This document shows, one piece after another, positions 54,321 to 61,785 of a stretch of DNA of 64,000 nucleotides. The position numbers and the translations under genes are program-made. This DNA comes from an alpha proteobacterium MED-G09. Its GTDB lineage: Bacteria; Pseudomonadota; Alphaproteobacteria; MED-G09. The notes beneath the pieces were generated by a model. It did not search any database. It had not been told where the DNA came from and worked only from the letters and a program-made list of their open reading frames with translations. The DNA lies in contig CAJIZT010000002.1 in NCBI GenBank assembly GCA_905182015.1, forward strand, positions 1 through 64,000, written 5' to 3'. How positions within the stretch are numbered: position 1 is the first letter of the stretch; every line of letters begins with the position of its first letter.

Positions 54321-55166
54321 ATGAGGTTCGAAGGTACAGAAAATTATATTGCTACAGAAGATTTACGTATTGCGGTCAATGCGGCGATAACTCTTGAAAG
54401 ACCACTCCTTATAAAGGGGGAGCCCGGTACAGGAAAAACTGTTTTAGCAGAAGAGATTTCTAAGGCACTTAAGATGCCCTTAATCACCTGGCATGTTAAA
54501 TCTACAACAAAAGCTCAGCAAGGCCTATATGAGTATGATGCCATAACTAGGCTAAGAGATTCGCAACTTGGTGATGAGAAAGTAAAGGATATTAAAAATT
54601 ATATCAAACGAGGAAAATTATGGGAATCTTTTGAGGCTGATGAAAGGCCGATACTTCTTATCGATGAAATTGATAAAGCTGATATAGAGTTTCCAAATGA
54701 TTTACTTCAGGAACTGGATAGAATGGAGTTCTATGTATATGAGACCAATGAAACTATTAAGGCTATAAAGAGACCTGTTGTTATTATAACTTCAAATAAT
54801 GAAAAAGAATTGCCCGATGCCTTTCTTCGACGATGTTTCTTTCATTACATATCATTCCCAGATACCTCGACAATGGAAAAAATTGTTGATGTTCATTATC
54901 CAAAAATAAAATCTAAATTGGTTTCAGAATCTCTGAAAGTTTTTTATGAACTCCGCGATGTTCCTGGGATCAAGAAAAAACCATCAACATCTGAATTACT
55001 TGACTGGCTAAAGCTGCTGATGAATGAGGATATTAAACCTGAAATGCTTAGAGAAAAAAATGCTAGTAATTTAATCCCTCCTTTGCACGGTGCATTATTA
55101 AAAAATGAACAAGATGTTCATTTATTTGAAAGACTAGCTTTTCTTGCAAGAAGGGATAATGGTTAA
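54321..55166 (+). CDS. MoxR-family AAA+ ATPase
   Basis: A 281-residue AAA+ protein: Walker A GEPGTGKT at 33-40, Walker B ILLIDEID at 111-118, sensor 1 in VVIITSNNE and arginine finger region DAFLRRCFFHY. MoxR proteins act with VWA proteins as chaperones that insert metals or mature enzymes. The VWA (CoxE-like) gene follows after eight bases, so the pair probably works together. GAGG precedes the ATG. The client is unknown; such pairs occur in many alphaproteobacteria without CO dehydrogenase. Confidence 0.9.
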   Translation: MRFEGTENYIATEDLRIAVNAAITLERPLLIKGEPGTGKTVLAEEISKALKMPLITWHVKSTTKAQQGLYEYDAITRLRDSQLGDEKVKDIKNYIKRGKLWESFEADERPILLIDEIDKADIEFPNDLLQELDRMEFYVYETNETIKAIKRPVVIITSNNEKELPDAFLRRCFFHYISFPDTSTMEKIVDVHYPKIKSKLVSESLKVFYELRDVPGIKKKPSTSELLDWLKLLMNEDIKPEMLREKNASNLIPPLHGALLKNEQDVHLFERLAFLARRDNG

Positions 55167-55174
55167 TTAGTAAG

Positions 55175-56356
55175 ATGTTTGTAAATTTTTTTCATGAACT
55201 AAAGACTGCTAAACTTCCTGTCTCTTTAAGGGAATACCTAACGCTGCTCGAGGCGATGGATAAAGGTGTGCCAAGTAGAAAGGTTGAAGATTTCTATTAT
55301 CTTTCGAGAGCCACGCTTGTGAAGGATGAGAAAAACCTTGATAAGTTTGATCAGGTTTTTGGTCATGTATTTAAGGGGTTGGAATCTTTAGAGGCAGATC
55401 AGGTAGCTGAAATTCCAGAGGAGTGGCTTAAAACATTAAACGAAAAATTTCTAACTGAAGAAGAAAAAGATAAAATAGAAGCCATGGGAGGCTGGGAAAA
55501 ACTTATGGATGAATTAAAAAAACGTCTGGAAGAACAAGAAAAAAGACACGAAGGTGGTTCAAAGTGGATTGGTACAGGTGGAACATCGCCATATGGTTCT
55601 GATGGATATAATCCAGAAGGAGTAAGGATTGGTCAAAAGGAAAATAAAAACTTCAAAGCTGTAAAGGTGTGGGACAAAAGAGAATTCAAAAATTTAGATA
55701 AGGATGTGGAGATTGGAATACGAAATATAAAGGTTGCGCTAAGAAGGTTAAGAAAATTTGCAAGAGATGGTGCGGCAGACACGCTAGATCTTCCTGGAAC
55801 AATTAAAAACACTGCTGATAGAGGCTATCTTGATATCTCTTTAGTTCCTGAAAGAAGAAACAAAGTTAAAGTATTGTTATTTTTTGATGTAGGTGGATCA
55901 ATGGATCCTCACGTAAAATTATGCGAAGAATTGTTTTCTGCTGCAAGGACTGAGTTCAAAAATATGGAAAATTTTTACTTTCATAATTGTCCTTACGAAT
56001 CAGTCTGGAGGGATAATAAAAGACGTCATGTAGAAAAAATTAATACTTGGGATATTTTGCACAAATATTCCTCAGACTATAAAGTTATATTTATTGGCGA
56101 CGCCTCTATGAGTCCTTATGAAATTACTTACTCGGGAGGTAGCGTGGAGCATTGGAATGATGAGGCCGGAGCTGAGTGGCTTCAAAGAATAACCGATATA
56201 TACCAAAACGTTATTTGGATTAACCCTGTTGATAAAAAACATTGGGAATTTACACCCTCTACTCAGATTATAAATCAAATATTTTCTAACAGGATGTTTC
56301 CATTGACTTTAGAAGGCTTAGATCATGGAATGAAAGAGCTAGGCCGAAATAAATGA
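55175..56356 (+). CDS. CoxE-like VWA-domain protein
   Basis: A 393-residue partner of the MoxR ATPase. The N-terminal half is helical and charged (about 1-130), followed by a glycine-rich linker GGSKWIGTGGTSPYGSDGY and the VWA domain from about 225. The MIDAS motif reads DVGGS (Asp238 to Ser242), where the classic motif has Ser at the third place; this variant is common in CoxE-like proteins. It likely scaffolds metal-cofactor maturation of some enzyme; a link to the molybdenum hydroxylase at 20-22 kb is speculative. Confidence 0.87.
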   Translation: MFVNFFHELKTAKLPVSLREYLTLLEAMDKGVPSRKVEDFYYLSRATLVKDEKNLDKFDQVFGHVFKGLESLEADQVAEIPEEWLKTLNEKFLTEEEKDKIEAMGGWEKLMDELKKRLEEQEKRHEGGSKWIGTGGTSPYGSDGYNPEGVRIGQKENKNFKAVKVWDKREFKNLDKDVEIGIRNIKVALRRLRKFARDGAADTLDLPGTIKNTADRGYLDISLVPERRNKVKVLLFFDVGGSMDPHVKLCEELFSAARTEFKNMENFYFHNCPYESVWRDNKRRHVEKINTWDILHKYSSDYKVIFIGDASMSPYEITYSGGSVEHWNDEAGAEWLQRITDIYQNVIWINPVDKKHWEFTPSTQIINQIFSNRMFPLTLEGLDHGMKELGRNK

Positions 56357-58142: not shown

Positions 58143-59417
58143 ATGATACAAGTCTCAATGAATAAAATAAACGATAAACCTCTAAGAATTTTAATGCCCA
58201 GCTACAGAAGTCACCCATATACCGGGGGACAAGGTATTTACATGCGCTTGGTTACAAAGGCTATGCTTGATTTGGGTCATACAGTTGAGGTACTCTCCGG
58301 ACAACCGTATCCAATTCTTGATAAAGGGATTGGTCTTACAAAACTACCCTCTCTTGACCTATATTCTTATGAAAACCCCTTAGATGCCTTTAGACTGGGA
58401 TTACTTAAGGAGCCAATTAATTTATATGAATTCTTGAGTCACTTATCAGGTGGTTTTTCAGAGCCTTACACATTTGGTGAACGGATGGCATTGTGGGGTA
58501 AGAGTAATTTCAAACGATTCGATGTTGTTCATGATAACCAAACACTGGCCTACGGACTTCTCAAGTTAAAGAAACTTGGACTACCAGTTGTTGGAACGAT
58601 TCATCACCCAATTACAATGGATAGAAGAATTGATATTAAGCATGCTGACACAATCGGATTAAAAATACTTAAATGGCGATGGTATAGTTTTTTAAAAATG
58701 CAAATAAAGGTTGCAAGAAAATTAGATCCCATAATAGTTGTTTCAGAAAATACAAGAAAAGACCTAATTAAAGATTTTAAAATTGATTCAGGGAAAACTA
58801 GAAAAGTCTTACACGGTATTGACCATGAAACCTTTCATCCAATTCCATCTATAAAAAGAAAGAATAATCAATTAATTACTACCGCGAGCGCTGATGTCCC
58901 TTTAAAGGGCCTTATTTATCTCATAAGAGCATACTCAGTTCTTTTAAAAGAATTTCCAGACCTAAAATTAACTGTAATTGGAAGGCTAAGGGAAGGCCCC
59001 ACCGATCAAGAGTTAAAAAAAGAAGGCATAAAAGATAAAGTTAAATTTGTTTCAGATCTTACGGGTCGAGAAATTGCTGAACTATATGCGGAATCAACAA
59101 TTGCTATTTCTCCATCCGTTTATGAAGGCTTTGGGTTCCCTGCAGGAGAAGCCATGTCTTGCGGTATTCCTTTAATTTCTTCGAACGGAGGCTCCCTTCC
59201 TGAGGTTGTAGGTGATGCCGGCATTATAGTTCCTCACTCAGATCCAAAAGCTCTAAAAGACGCAGTATCATCATTACTAAAATCACCAGAGAGGCAATTG
59301 GAGCTTGGCGAAAGGGGAAGGAAAAGAGTGTTGGAAAAATTTACCTGGAAAAGGGCAGCCAAAGAGTTAGTCGAGATCTATAGAGAGGCAATTGATAATG
59401 CTAACAATAGATCTTAA
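58143..59417 (+). CDS. Glycosyltransferase family 4 protein
   Basis: A 424-residue GT-B-fold retaining transferase. The N-terminal RILMPSYRSHPYTGGQGIYMRLV is a donor-binding glycine loop typical of GT4, and the C-terminal SPSVYEGFGFPAGEAMSCGIPLISS has the E-x7-E nucleotide-sugar motif. An ATG at 58158 is an alternative start. It belongs to a cluster with a methyltransferase whose start overlaps its end by 20 bases. The acceptor is unknown. Confidence 0.9.
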   Translation: MIQVSMNKINDKPLRILMPSYRSHPYTGGQGIYMRLVTKAMLDLGHTVEVLSGQPYPILDKGIGLTKLPSLDLYSYENPLDAFRLGLLKEPINLYEFLSHLSGGFSEPYTFGERMALWGKSNFKRFDVVHDNQTLAYGLLKLKKLGLPVVGTIHHPITMDRRIDIKHADTIGLKILKWRWYSFLKMQIKVARKLDPIIVVSENTRKDLIKDFKIDSGKTRKVLHGIDHETFHPIPSIKRKNNQLITTASADVPLKGLIYLIRAYSVLLKEFPDLKLTVIGRLREGPTDQELKKEGIKDKVKFVSDLTGREIAELYAESTIAISPSVYEGFGFPAGEAMSCGIPLISSNGGSLPEVVGDAGIIVPHSDPKALKDAVSSLLKSPERQLELGERGRKRVLEKFTWKRAAKELVEIYREAIDNANNRS

Positions 59418-60114
59418 TAAGATAAAGATAAAAGACGGTCACACAATACTTGATTTAGGTTGTGGTAAGGGTAGGCACATTCATAAGCTCTATTATTACA
59501 AAAAGTGTCATGTAATTGGATTGGACTTATCCTACGGAGATCTTCAGACGACGTATGAAGGATTTGAAAAATATCCCGATACTTCAAATGACCCAGAACG
59601 ACAATTTAATTTAATGGTAGGTAATGCACTCAACCTTCCATTTCCTGATGAAACGTTCGATAGGGTAATTTGTTCAGAAGTTCTCGAGCACATACCTGAT
59701 TATGAAAACGTTATAAAGGAAATCTTTCGAGTAACAAAAAAAGATGCACAAATTGGAATTTCTGTGCCCCGCTGGTTACCAGAAAAAATATGTTGGTACC
59801 TTTCAGATGATTATCATAATGAGCCAGGTGGACATGTACATATTTTTAACTTTAAAGATTTAAGAGCGGACTTTAAGAATAATGGATTCTCTTATCTCTT
59901 TAAATCCTACAAACACGGTCTTCATTCACCCTACTGGTGGTTAAAGTGTTTTGTAGGAGTTAAAAATGATAAAAATATTTTAGTTAAGGTTTATCAAAAA
60001 TTTCTTGAGTGGGATATTCTACAAAGACCACTTTTAACTAGGTTCTTAGAAAAAATATTTGATCCTCTACTTGGAAAATCATTAGTTTTATATTTTAAGA
60101 AAAATAATAAGTAA
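59398..60114 (+). CDS. Class I SAM-dependent methyltransferase
   Basis: A 238-residue methyltransferase starting inside the GT gene (ATG at 59398 after GAGG; a TTG six bases earlier is less likely). Motif I is ILDLGCGKGRHIHKLYY, motif II VIGLDLSYGDL, and the VICSEVLEHIPDYENVIKEIFRVTKK region is typical of Methyltransf_11. The C-terminal part is basic and aromatic (HSPYWWLKC). It probably methylates a product of the adjacent GT4 enzyme. Confidence 0.87.
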   Translation: MLTIDLNKIKIKDGHTILDLGCGKGRHIHKLYYYKKCHVIGLDLSYGDLQTTYEGFEKYPDTSNDPERQFNLMVGNALNLPFPDETFDRVICSEVLEHIPDYENVIKEIFRVTKKDAQIGISVPRWLPEKICWYLSDDYHNEPGGHVHIFNFKDLRADFKNNGFSYLFKSYKHGLHSPYWWLKCFVGVKNDKNILVKVYQKFLEWDILQRPLLTRFLEKIFDPLLGKSLVLYFKKNNK

Positions 60115-60117
60115 TAA

Positions 60118-61188
60118 ATGAAAAAGAATTTAAAATATCAAGATTTTTTTAAGGGATCGATTGATAGAATCATAAAGCTTCAAAGGCAAGATGGTTCAAT
60201 AACATGGTTCTCTAATGGTGTATTTGATTCGTGGAATCATCTTGAGTCTGTGATGGCCTTAAATATTTTTCAATATAAAAAAGAGACGAGTCTAGGATTT
60301 AATTACCTAAAAGATTCCCAATTAAGTGATGGCTCATGGTACGGACAACTTGGTAGCGCAGTTAATATTGATGCAAATGATGGGGTGTTCAAAGGTGATG
60401 AAACAAAAGCTGGAAAACCAATAAGGGATACTAATTTTTCTGCATACATAGCAACTGCTTGTTGGCATGATTACCTTATAAGCCAATCTACAGAATTTTT
60501 AGAAGAAATGTGGCCCACAATAGAAAAAGCGATTACATTTGTTCTTAACCACCAATCAGTCAATGGAGAAATAAGGTGGGCTGCAAAAGATGAATCAGCA
60601 CCTCACGATGACGCTCTAATTACAGGATGTTGCTCTATATATAAAAGTCTTATATGTGCAATCAATTGCGCTTCAATTCTAAAGATAAAAAAAGAAGATT
60701 GGAAGAAATCTCTTTCCATGCTTGGAGAGGCGATTAAAAATAGGCCACATCTATTTGACAGAACATGGGAATCTAAAGAACGTTTTTCAATGGACTGGTA
60801 TTATCCGATATTATCAGGAGTAATATCAAATAAAGAGGCAGAAGATAAGTTAAAAGAAAAATGGGATACCTTTGTTGTTAAGAACATTGGATGCAAGTGT
60901 GTGTCTGATCAGCCCTGGGTTACTGTTGCGGAGACAGCTGAATTGGCTATAACTTTAATGAAGATGGGTAAAGAGCCAGATGCGAAGAAGATGTTATCTT
61001 GGGCCGATAAATGGAGAGACAGTAATGGTGCTTACTGGATGGGAAGACAATATGAGCAGGATGTTTTTTGGCCTAAAGAAAAACCTCCCTGGACATCTGC
61101 TGCTGTTATCCTTGCCTATGATTCCATTTTTAAAATAAGCAAAGCATCGGAATTATTTTTACAAGATGGCTTAAGAGATTCTTTTTAA
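60118..61188 (+). CDS. Alpha/alpha-toroid (prenyltransferase/squalene-oxidase-repeat-like) protein
   Basis: A 356-residue protein of the (alpha/alpha) barrel type. Repeats such as LQRQDGSITWFSNG, DSQLSDGSWYGQL, HQSVNGEIRW and SNGAYWMG recur with similar Gly-Ser/Asp-Gly turns, and FDSWNHLESVMALNI resembles prenyltransferase and squalene-cyclase-like domains. No DxDD cyclase motif is seen, so a cyclase is not supported; glycan or lipid binding or hydrolysis is possible. It is three bases after the methyltransferase and its end overlaps the convergent second methyltransferase. Confidence 0.7.
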   Translation: MKKNLKYQDFFKGSIDRIIKLQRQDGSITWFSNGVFDSWNHLESVMALNIFQYKKETSLGFNYLKDSQLSDGSWYGQLGSAVNIDANDGVFKGDETKAGKPIRDTNFSAYIATACWHDYLISQSTEFLEEMWPTIEKAITFVLNHQSVNGEIRWAAKDESAPHDDALITGCCSIYKSLICAINCASILKIKKEDWKKSLSMLGEAIKNRPHLFDRTWESKERFSMDWYYPILSGVISNKEAEDKLKEKWDTFVVKNIGCKCVSDQPWVTVAETAELAITLMKMGKEPDAKKMLSWADKWRDSNGAYWMGRQYEQDVFWPKEKPPWTSAAVILAYDSIFKISKASELFLQDGLRDSF

Positions 61189-61785
61189 TATTCTGAGGGA
61201 TTTTACAGCACTAATCTCTTTAAAATTATTTGATTCTAAAGCTAATTTATAAATCTCGTAAGGCGGCCTACCACCATCTTCAGGGTTTGGAAAAACATCA
61301 TGAATTGCTAAGAACCCTCCCTTCATTACCCTACCGTTCCAATTATCAAAATCAGACTTAGCGGCGGCCATACTGTGACCGCCATCAATAAAAATCATAG
61401 ATGATTGTATTGTCCAGAATCTAGAAACTAGCGATGAAGATGAGACAATGGGAATTACAGTATTCTCTAAATTTGCATTTCTAATATTTGTTCTAAATGT
61501 TGGAAATGAATTAATCTTCCCTGTTTCCTCATCAAACAACTGATCATCATGATACTCCCACCCAATTTGGTTTTCCTCAGACCCCATGTGATGATCGATC
61601 GCATAAAGAATTGAATTATTTTCTTTGCATGCAAGTCCGATATAAATTGTCGACTTACCGCAATAAGATCCAATTTCAATTACTGGCGCTCTTTTTGATG
61701 CCTTGAGAGCAGTCCTATAAAGGCACTCACCCTCCTCCGGATCCATAAAGCCCTTAACTAAATTAAAATTACTAGGAAGTTTCAC
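61171..61785 (-). CDS. Class I SAM-dependent methyltransferase (Methyltransf_24/CmcI-like)
   Basis: A 204-residue methyltransferase. Motif I is VIEIGSYCGKSTIYIGLA, followed by YAIDHHMGSEENQ, the acidic FIDGGHSM region and GGFLAIHDVFPNPEDGGRPP. The DGGH/HD pattern suggests a metal-assisted O-methyltransferase. It is convergent with the toroid gene, overlapping it by 18 bases, and upstream lies the symporter gene overlapping it by 14 bases. Confidence 0.85.
   Translation of the reverse strand: MKLPSNFNLVKGFMDPEEGECLYRTALKASKRAPVIEIGSYCGKSTIYIGLACKENNSILYAIDHHMGSEENQIGWEYHDDQLFDEETGKINSFPTFRTNIRNANLENTVIPIVSSSSLVSRFWTIQSSMIFIDGGHSMAAAKSDFDNWNGRVMKGGFLAIHDVFPNPEDGGRPPYEIYKLALESNNFKEISAVKSLRILKRIS

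Follow-up and report, generated by a model that had tools for sequence, protein, structure and literature searches.

Methylmannose polysaccharide (MMP) has been proposed to hold fatty acyl-CoA and has been linked to growth in the cold. The mycobacterial MMP cluster described in PMC9883506 consists of manT, pmeT3, mmpH and meT1 under the consecutive tags MHAS_04402 to 04405. The activities of ManT, MmpH and MeT1 have been demonstrated in mycobacteria. In the model given there, MMP undergoes a self-recycling, partly conservative replication, whereby ManT extends the chain, a 3-O-methyltransferase methylates it, MmpH cuts the mature chain to defined primers and MeT1 re-caps the one left with a free end (PMC9883506). 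Literature searches of limited breadth found MMP genes described in Actinobacteria only, and the word "Proteobacteria" has no occurrence in the text of PMC9883506 (word-start search). Here, a compact set of four genes is analysed in a 64,000-nucleotide stretch (the window) of the alphaproteobacterium MED-G09 (assembly GCA_905182015.1, contig CAJIZT010000002.1). The four genes are very likely an MMP-type cluster of the mycobacterial kind with a predicted MMP product. Such a four-gene system is already known, and its host range is unexpectedly wide.

All four genes are present in the window, and their order, ManT-MeT3-MmpH-MeT1, equals that of MHAS_04402-04405. An earlier note on this DNA had described them as a glycosyltransferase family 4 (GT4) protein, a methyltransferase, a toroid protein and a convergent second methyltransferase, and had recognized no known operon; the latter was wrong because the set matches the MMP cluster of PMC9883506 gene for gene and in the same order. 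Among solved structures searched with phmmer, the best match of three of the four proteins was an M. hassiacum MMP enzyme, far above the next entry: 7qsg for the GT4 protein (E 4.9e-91, 308.8 bits; next chain 74.7 bits), MmpH (7qsj) for the toroid protein (E 1.3e-69; next 0.33) and, over the full length, 6g7d for the convergent methyltransferase (E 3.7e-57; next chain E 0.82). The last entry, titled in the PDB as a methyltransferase domain protein, is presumably M. hassiacum MeT1. Structure 7qsg was deposited as "D-inositol 3-phosphate glycosyltransferase", and from its matching sequence features and the neighboring entry code we infer that it is the M. hassiacum ManT of PMC9883506. For the first methyltransferase, the solved structures offered no close match (best E 6.3e-9). 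Its position is that of pMeT3 in the gene order of PMC9883506, and it is 44% identical over 234 amino acids to the methyltransferase that occupies this place in the Nonomuraea cluster; it may act at O-3. In comparison, the GT4 protein and the convergent methyltransferase are 45% and 49% identical to their Nonomuraea homologues. Pfam and NCBIfam name only GT4, a class I methyltransferase and Methyltransf_24, in agreement with the family calls made earlier, and the four-gene system itself is unnamed there. Overall, the identification as an MMP-type four-gene system is strong, and the chemistry in these hosts is predicted by homology.

The toroid protein had no match above the cut-offs in Pfam and NCBIfam. 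Its AlphaFold model (pLDDT 89.1, pTM 0.91; 23-row alignment), a check already suggested in the earlier note, superposed on MmpH: Foldseek placed 7qsj first (E 8.8e-29; next entry 2.5e-7), and VIA-align 2 gave Z 47.3 with a root-mean-square deviation of 2.0 over 334 residues at 35% identity (next entry Z 32.6). The alternative foreseen in that note, a known enzyme of common metabolism, was half correct, as the protein corresponds to a known enzyme, MmpH, but not to one of common metabolism. A terpene cyclase or prenyltransferase was considered and rejected: the DxDD motif was absent on sequence check, as had been noted before, the squalene-hopene/terpene cyclase profile PF13243 matched only weakly (E 0.022, 14.2 bits; cut-off 26.1), and the match was to MmpH instead.

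Mutation of K240, E313 or E321 in ManT and of D47 or E262 in MmpH abolished or strongly reduced the activity of the mycobacterial enzymes (PMC9883506). In the window, Asp47, Trp49, Glu262 and Glu265 of MmpH are kept as D37, W39, E272 and E275. An MmpH alignment was made of 82 rows (the window, 80 loci described below and Nonomuraea); Asp47, Trp49, Met215, Tyr219, Glu262 and Glu265 were kept in 82/82 rows. Likewise, Gly15, His142, Lys240, Glu313 and Glu321 of ManT, a GT4 enzyme of the GT-B type, are all kept in the window (G28, H154, K255, E328 and E336). In the 78-row ManT alignment, the first three were found in all 74 rows with a letter (4 gaps), and both glutamates in 77 of 77 (1 gap). Rows below 60 bits against the window protein were removed before residues were counted in either alignment.

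A scan of 84,980 species genomes with MmpH gave at least 587 confirmed stretches, of which the best 80 were analyzed as loci. These came from the OCS116 and PS1 clades, Rhodobiaceae, Parvibaculum, SAR86, Halieaceae, Microbulbifer, Cellvibrio, Endozoicomonas, SAR324, Syntrophaceae and Natrinema, and the window grouped with MmpH homologues labelled OCS116/Rhodobiaceae. Rare co-occurrence of the four genes, named in the earlier note as an outcome that would speak against the set, was not observed: ManT and MeT3 stood upstream of MmpH in all 70 loci with more than 2.2 kb of upstream sequence, and a convergent MeT1 followed at most 1 kb downstream in 64 of the 77 loci with more than 800 bases downstream. 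With Nonomuraea included, MeT1 was present somewhere in the stretch in 69/81 loci. A search of ten genomes with no MeT1 at the locus (L073: a fragment only) placed it elsewhere in nine of them, and Natrinema had none genome-wide. In SAR86 AG-343-L05 (L083:2420-14389), the MMP-type set was seen inside an inner-core locus for lipopolysaccharide (LPS).

Within the window's own order, an MmpH homologue was found in 15 of 18 genomes, including 6/6 at 90% completeness or more, the three misses being 55 to 76% complete; the set is a fixed part of these small genomes. In the sampled Pseudomonadota, homologues occurred in 5 of 398 genomes, the window's included, and the distribution across the phylum is therefore patchy. 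The class of Natrinema had them in 11 of 145 genomes. A recent transfer into the window's lineage was not supported, the guanine plus cytosine content of the set being equal to that of the window (0.360 vs 0.357). Counting against it as well, all 24 MmpH rows labelled Alphaproteobacteria grouped together in a midpoint-rooted tree built with a quick method, and a ferredoxin reductase-like neighbor recurred upstream in nine loci. A phage or plasmid origin was also considered and rejected. Matches in PHROGs were confined to generic glycosyl- and methyltransferase families, with none for the toroid protein, and no phage record matched that protein; the plasmid collection held a single match, in Nonomuraea (11.85 Mb). 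This record, NZ_LT559118.1 of Nonomuraea gerenzanensis, is filed as a plasmid and is of chromosome size.

The layout of the locus is given in Table 1. Positions of the open reading frames confirmed the coordinates, overlaps, three-base gap and convergence reported earlier. The first two genes overlap by 26 bases counted from TTG 59392 or by 20 from ATG 59398, the latter probably being the start because the homologue in Nonomuraea starts at the equivalent residue. The toroid gene follows the first methyltransferase gene at a distance of 3 bases and shares its final 18 bases with the convergent gene. No hydrophobic or signal-like N-terminal stretch was seen in any of the four proteins, and they are therefore likely cytoplasmic. 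The upstream neighbors encode a von Willebrand factor A (VWA) protein (PF05762), a pyridine nucleotide-disulphide (ferredoxin reductase-like) oxidoreductase and a 2Fe-2S ferredoxin, and a sodium:alanine symporter follows downstream. Further upstream of the set, at 54321-56356 of the window, an AAA-type ATPase-like protein (by eye) adjoins the VWA (CoxE-like) protein.

Table 1. Genes of the proposed MMP-type cluster in the window.
Feature	Position	Strand	Description
ManT-like GT4 glycosyltransferase	58143..59417	+	424 aa; proposed alpha-(1->4)-mannosyltransferase; PF00534/PF13439
MeT3-like class I methyltransferase	59392..60114	+	240 aa from TTG; proposed 3-O-methyltransferase; PF08241
MmpH-like (alpha/alpha)6-barrel endo-mannosidase ("toroid protein")	60118..61188	+	356 aa
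MeT1-like methyltransferase	61171..61785	-	204 aa, GTG start; proposed reducing-end 1-O-methyltransferase; Methyltransf_24 (PF13578)

Several observations weigh against the identification as an MMP cluster. The middle methyltransferase is a putative MeT3, assigned by position and homology. The loci were collected by MmpH, so that co-occurrence is conditional on this protein and the counts are silent on ManT or MeT1 occurring without it. Four loci of the haloarchaeal class (L088, L130, L131 and L132) keep ManT-MeT3-MmpH with no MeT1 found nearby. No ordinary guanosine diphosphate mannose (GDP-mannose) pyrophosphorylase was found in the window's genome (97.9% complete) with TIGR01479, PF00483 and PF12804. 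Asp293 of ManT, a proposed guanine contact (PMC9883506), is Gly (G308) in the window; it is also variable in other rows and hence not family-wide. Finally, Asp50 of MmpH, needed for most of the activity in M. hassiacum (PMC9883506), is Asn40 in the window and Asn in 24/24 rows labelled Alphaproteobacteria. Over the 82 rows, this position was Asp in 53 and Asn in 29 (the window, the 24 alphaproteobacterial rows, L024, L051, L099 and Nonomuraea), with Asp in 46 of 47 Gammaproteobacteria. Since the actinomycete Nonomuraea also has Asn, Asp50 varies inside the MmpH family itself. The choice between Asp47 and Asp50 as the catalytic acid was left undecided in PMC9883506; the alignment favors Asp47, which is invariant while Asp50 varies, and such natural variation bears on the question raised by the mycobacterial work.

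The supply of the mannose donor was followed with profiles TIGR01479, PF02878, PF00483 and PF12804. Both a phosphomannomutase-family gene and a mannose-6-phosphate isomerase-type domain are present in the window's genome. The match to TIGR01479 was confined to the isomerase portion of a 263-amino acid protein, PF00483 matched one 455-amino acid frame of GlmU length, and PF12804 yielded no evident candidate. The 263-amino acid protein, encoded outside the window (L105:4143-4931, minus strand; the same as G000:C10:12142-12930, minus strand), is a fusion of a cytidylyltransferase-like front half (PF01467) with a mannose-6-phosphate isomerase cupin (PF01050). Among 17 genomes searched in the family, 8 had it in full length and one more had part of it. 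As a donor-maker it stays a candidate only, because one genome, G003 (96% complete), carries MmpH without the fusion. A strong PF00483 match of 251-262 amino acids was present in 5 of the 17 family genomes.

Other explanations of the locus were weighed against the MMP identification. Because the sets of SAR86 L083 and Pseudohalioglobus L060 sit among LPS core genes, the enzymes might have been co-opted from a cytoplasmic polymer pathway to make or trim a methylated mannan of the LPS core or O chain in Gram-negative bacteria. Indeed, the L083 set stands among genes for heptosyltransferase II, an RfaP-like kinase, HldE, a lipid A acyltransferase, a heptose epimerase and a 3-deoxy-D-manno-octulosonic acid (Kdo) transferase, the L060 set is placed beside HldE, a Kdo transferase and RmlA, and the HldE-holding gene cluster of both recurs in 12/81 loci. 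However, attachment to LPS would deprive the chain of the free reducing end that MeT1 needs and would take it out of the compartment in which MmpH resides; the neighbors in the window's lineage (ferredoxin, ferredoxin reductase-like protein and alanine symporter) include no LPS genes; and the same set is found in organisms that lack LPS (mycobacteria and Nonomuraea) and, minus MeT1, in haloarchaea. Such a role is improbable.

Slightly less probable still is that the same enzyme families build and recycle another short methylated oligosaccharide, for example one with a different hexose or linkage, and do not use GDP-mannose as the donor. The loss of Asp293 in ManT, the D50N exchange in MmpH and the missing pyrophosphorylase would fit this possibility, but the catalytic and other sugar-site residues are kept, the phosphomannomutase-family gene and the isomerase-type domain are present, and D50 is Asn in the actinomycete as well. 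That unrelated genes became adjacent by chance is scarcely conceivable and is refuted by the same order in 70/70 loci with enough upstream sequence. These span Alphaproteobacteria, Gammaproteobacteria, SAR324, Syntrophaceae and haloarchaea, and an actinomycete shows the order as well.

For the MMP-type cluster, the same cycle as in mycobacteria may be expected, because the same four enzymes are present with kept active sites. ManT would extend a short methylated mannan by alpha-(1->4)-linked mannose units, and MeT3 would methylate every new unit at O-3. MmpH would then split the completed chain intracellularly to give two primers, MeT1 would methyl-cap the newly freed reducing end, and both pieces would grow again. 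This would yield a methylmannose chain that lies free in the cytoplasm and is able to hold acyl chains; a free chain rather than one anchored to lipid A is suggested because the reducing-end methylase is kept together with the endo-hydrolase. The earlier proposal that the set decorates a glycolipid or small metabolite was right in seeing one set that glycosylates and methylates a carbohydrate. By homology, however, this set would rather build, cut and cap a short methylated mannan. By analogy, the marine enzymes may share the mycobacterial substrates and donor sugar nucleotide, and the polymer may contribute to lipid metabolism or to growth at low temperature.

Marine bacteria of this kind generally use type II fatty acid synthesis (FAS II) and bear an LPS envelope. 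A wider proposal, which we regard as tentative and rather doubtful as a whole, is that cytoplasmic MMP, far from being confined to Actinobacteria, is commonly made by abundant ocean bacteria (OCS116/PS1, SAR86, SAR324 and Halieaceae) and by some haloarchaea, that it carries acyl chains in cells that combine FAS II with an LPS envelope, that it is tied to LPS assembly in SAR86, and that in the window's lineage its donor comes from the noncanonical nucleotidyltransferase-isomerase fusion. If the MMP identification is right, a supposed mycobacterial oddity would be encoded by some of the commonest bacteria of the surface ocean, and Microbulbifer, Haliea and relatives of Cellvibrio would offer cultured non-mycobacterial systems for studying the role of the polymer.

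Compared with known systems, the toroid protein shares its fold with other (alpha/alpha)6-barrel glycoside hydrolases and phosphorylases (bacterial glucoamylase, glucodextranase, glycoside hydrolase families 63 and 94-type; Z about 26 to 33), but these are only 7 to 14% identical and score far below MmpH. The MMP cluster described for nontuberculous mycobacteria resembles the locus in its four genes, their order, near full-length homology where compared, the catalytic residues and the MmpH fold. It differs in its host, the window belonging to a small-genome marine alphaproteobacterium that presumably uses FAS II and has an LPS envelope, and in having Asp at MmpH position 50 and Asp293 in ManT; product and donor in the window's organism are predicted from the genes. 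The cluster of Nonomuraea gerenzanensis (L103, NZ_LT559118.1) has a DUF1702 gene between MmpH and MeT1 and a GDP-mannose dehydratase-like gene upstream, but shares with the window the ManT-MeT3-MmpH line, the convergent MeT1 and the Asn at Asp50 of MmpH.

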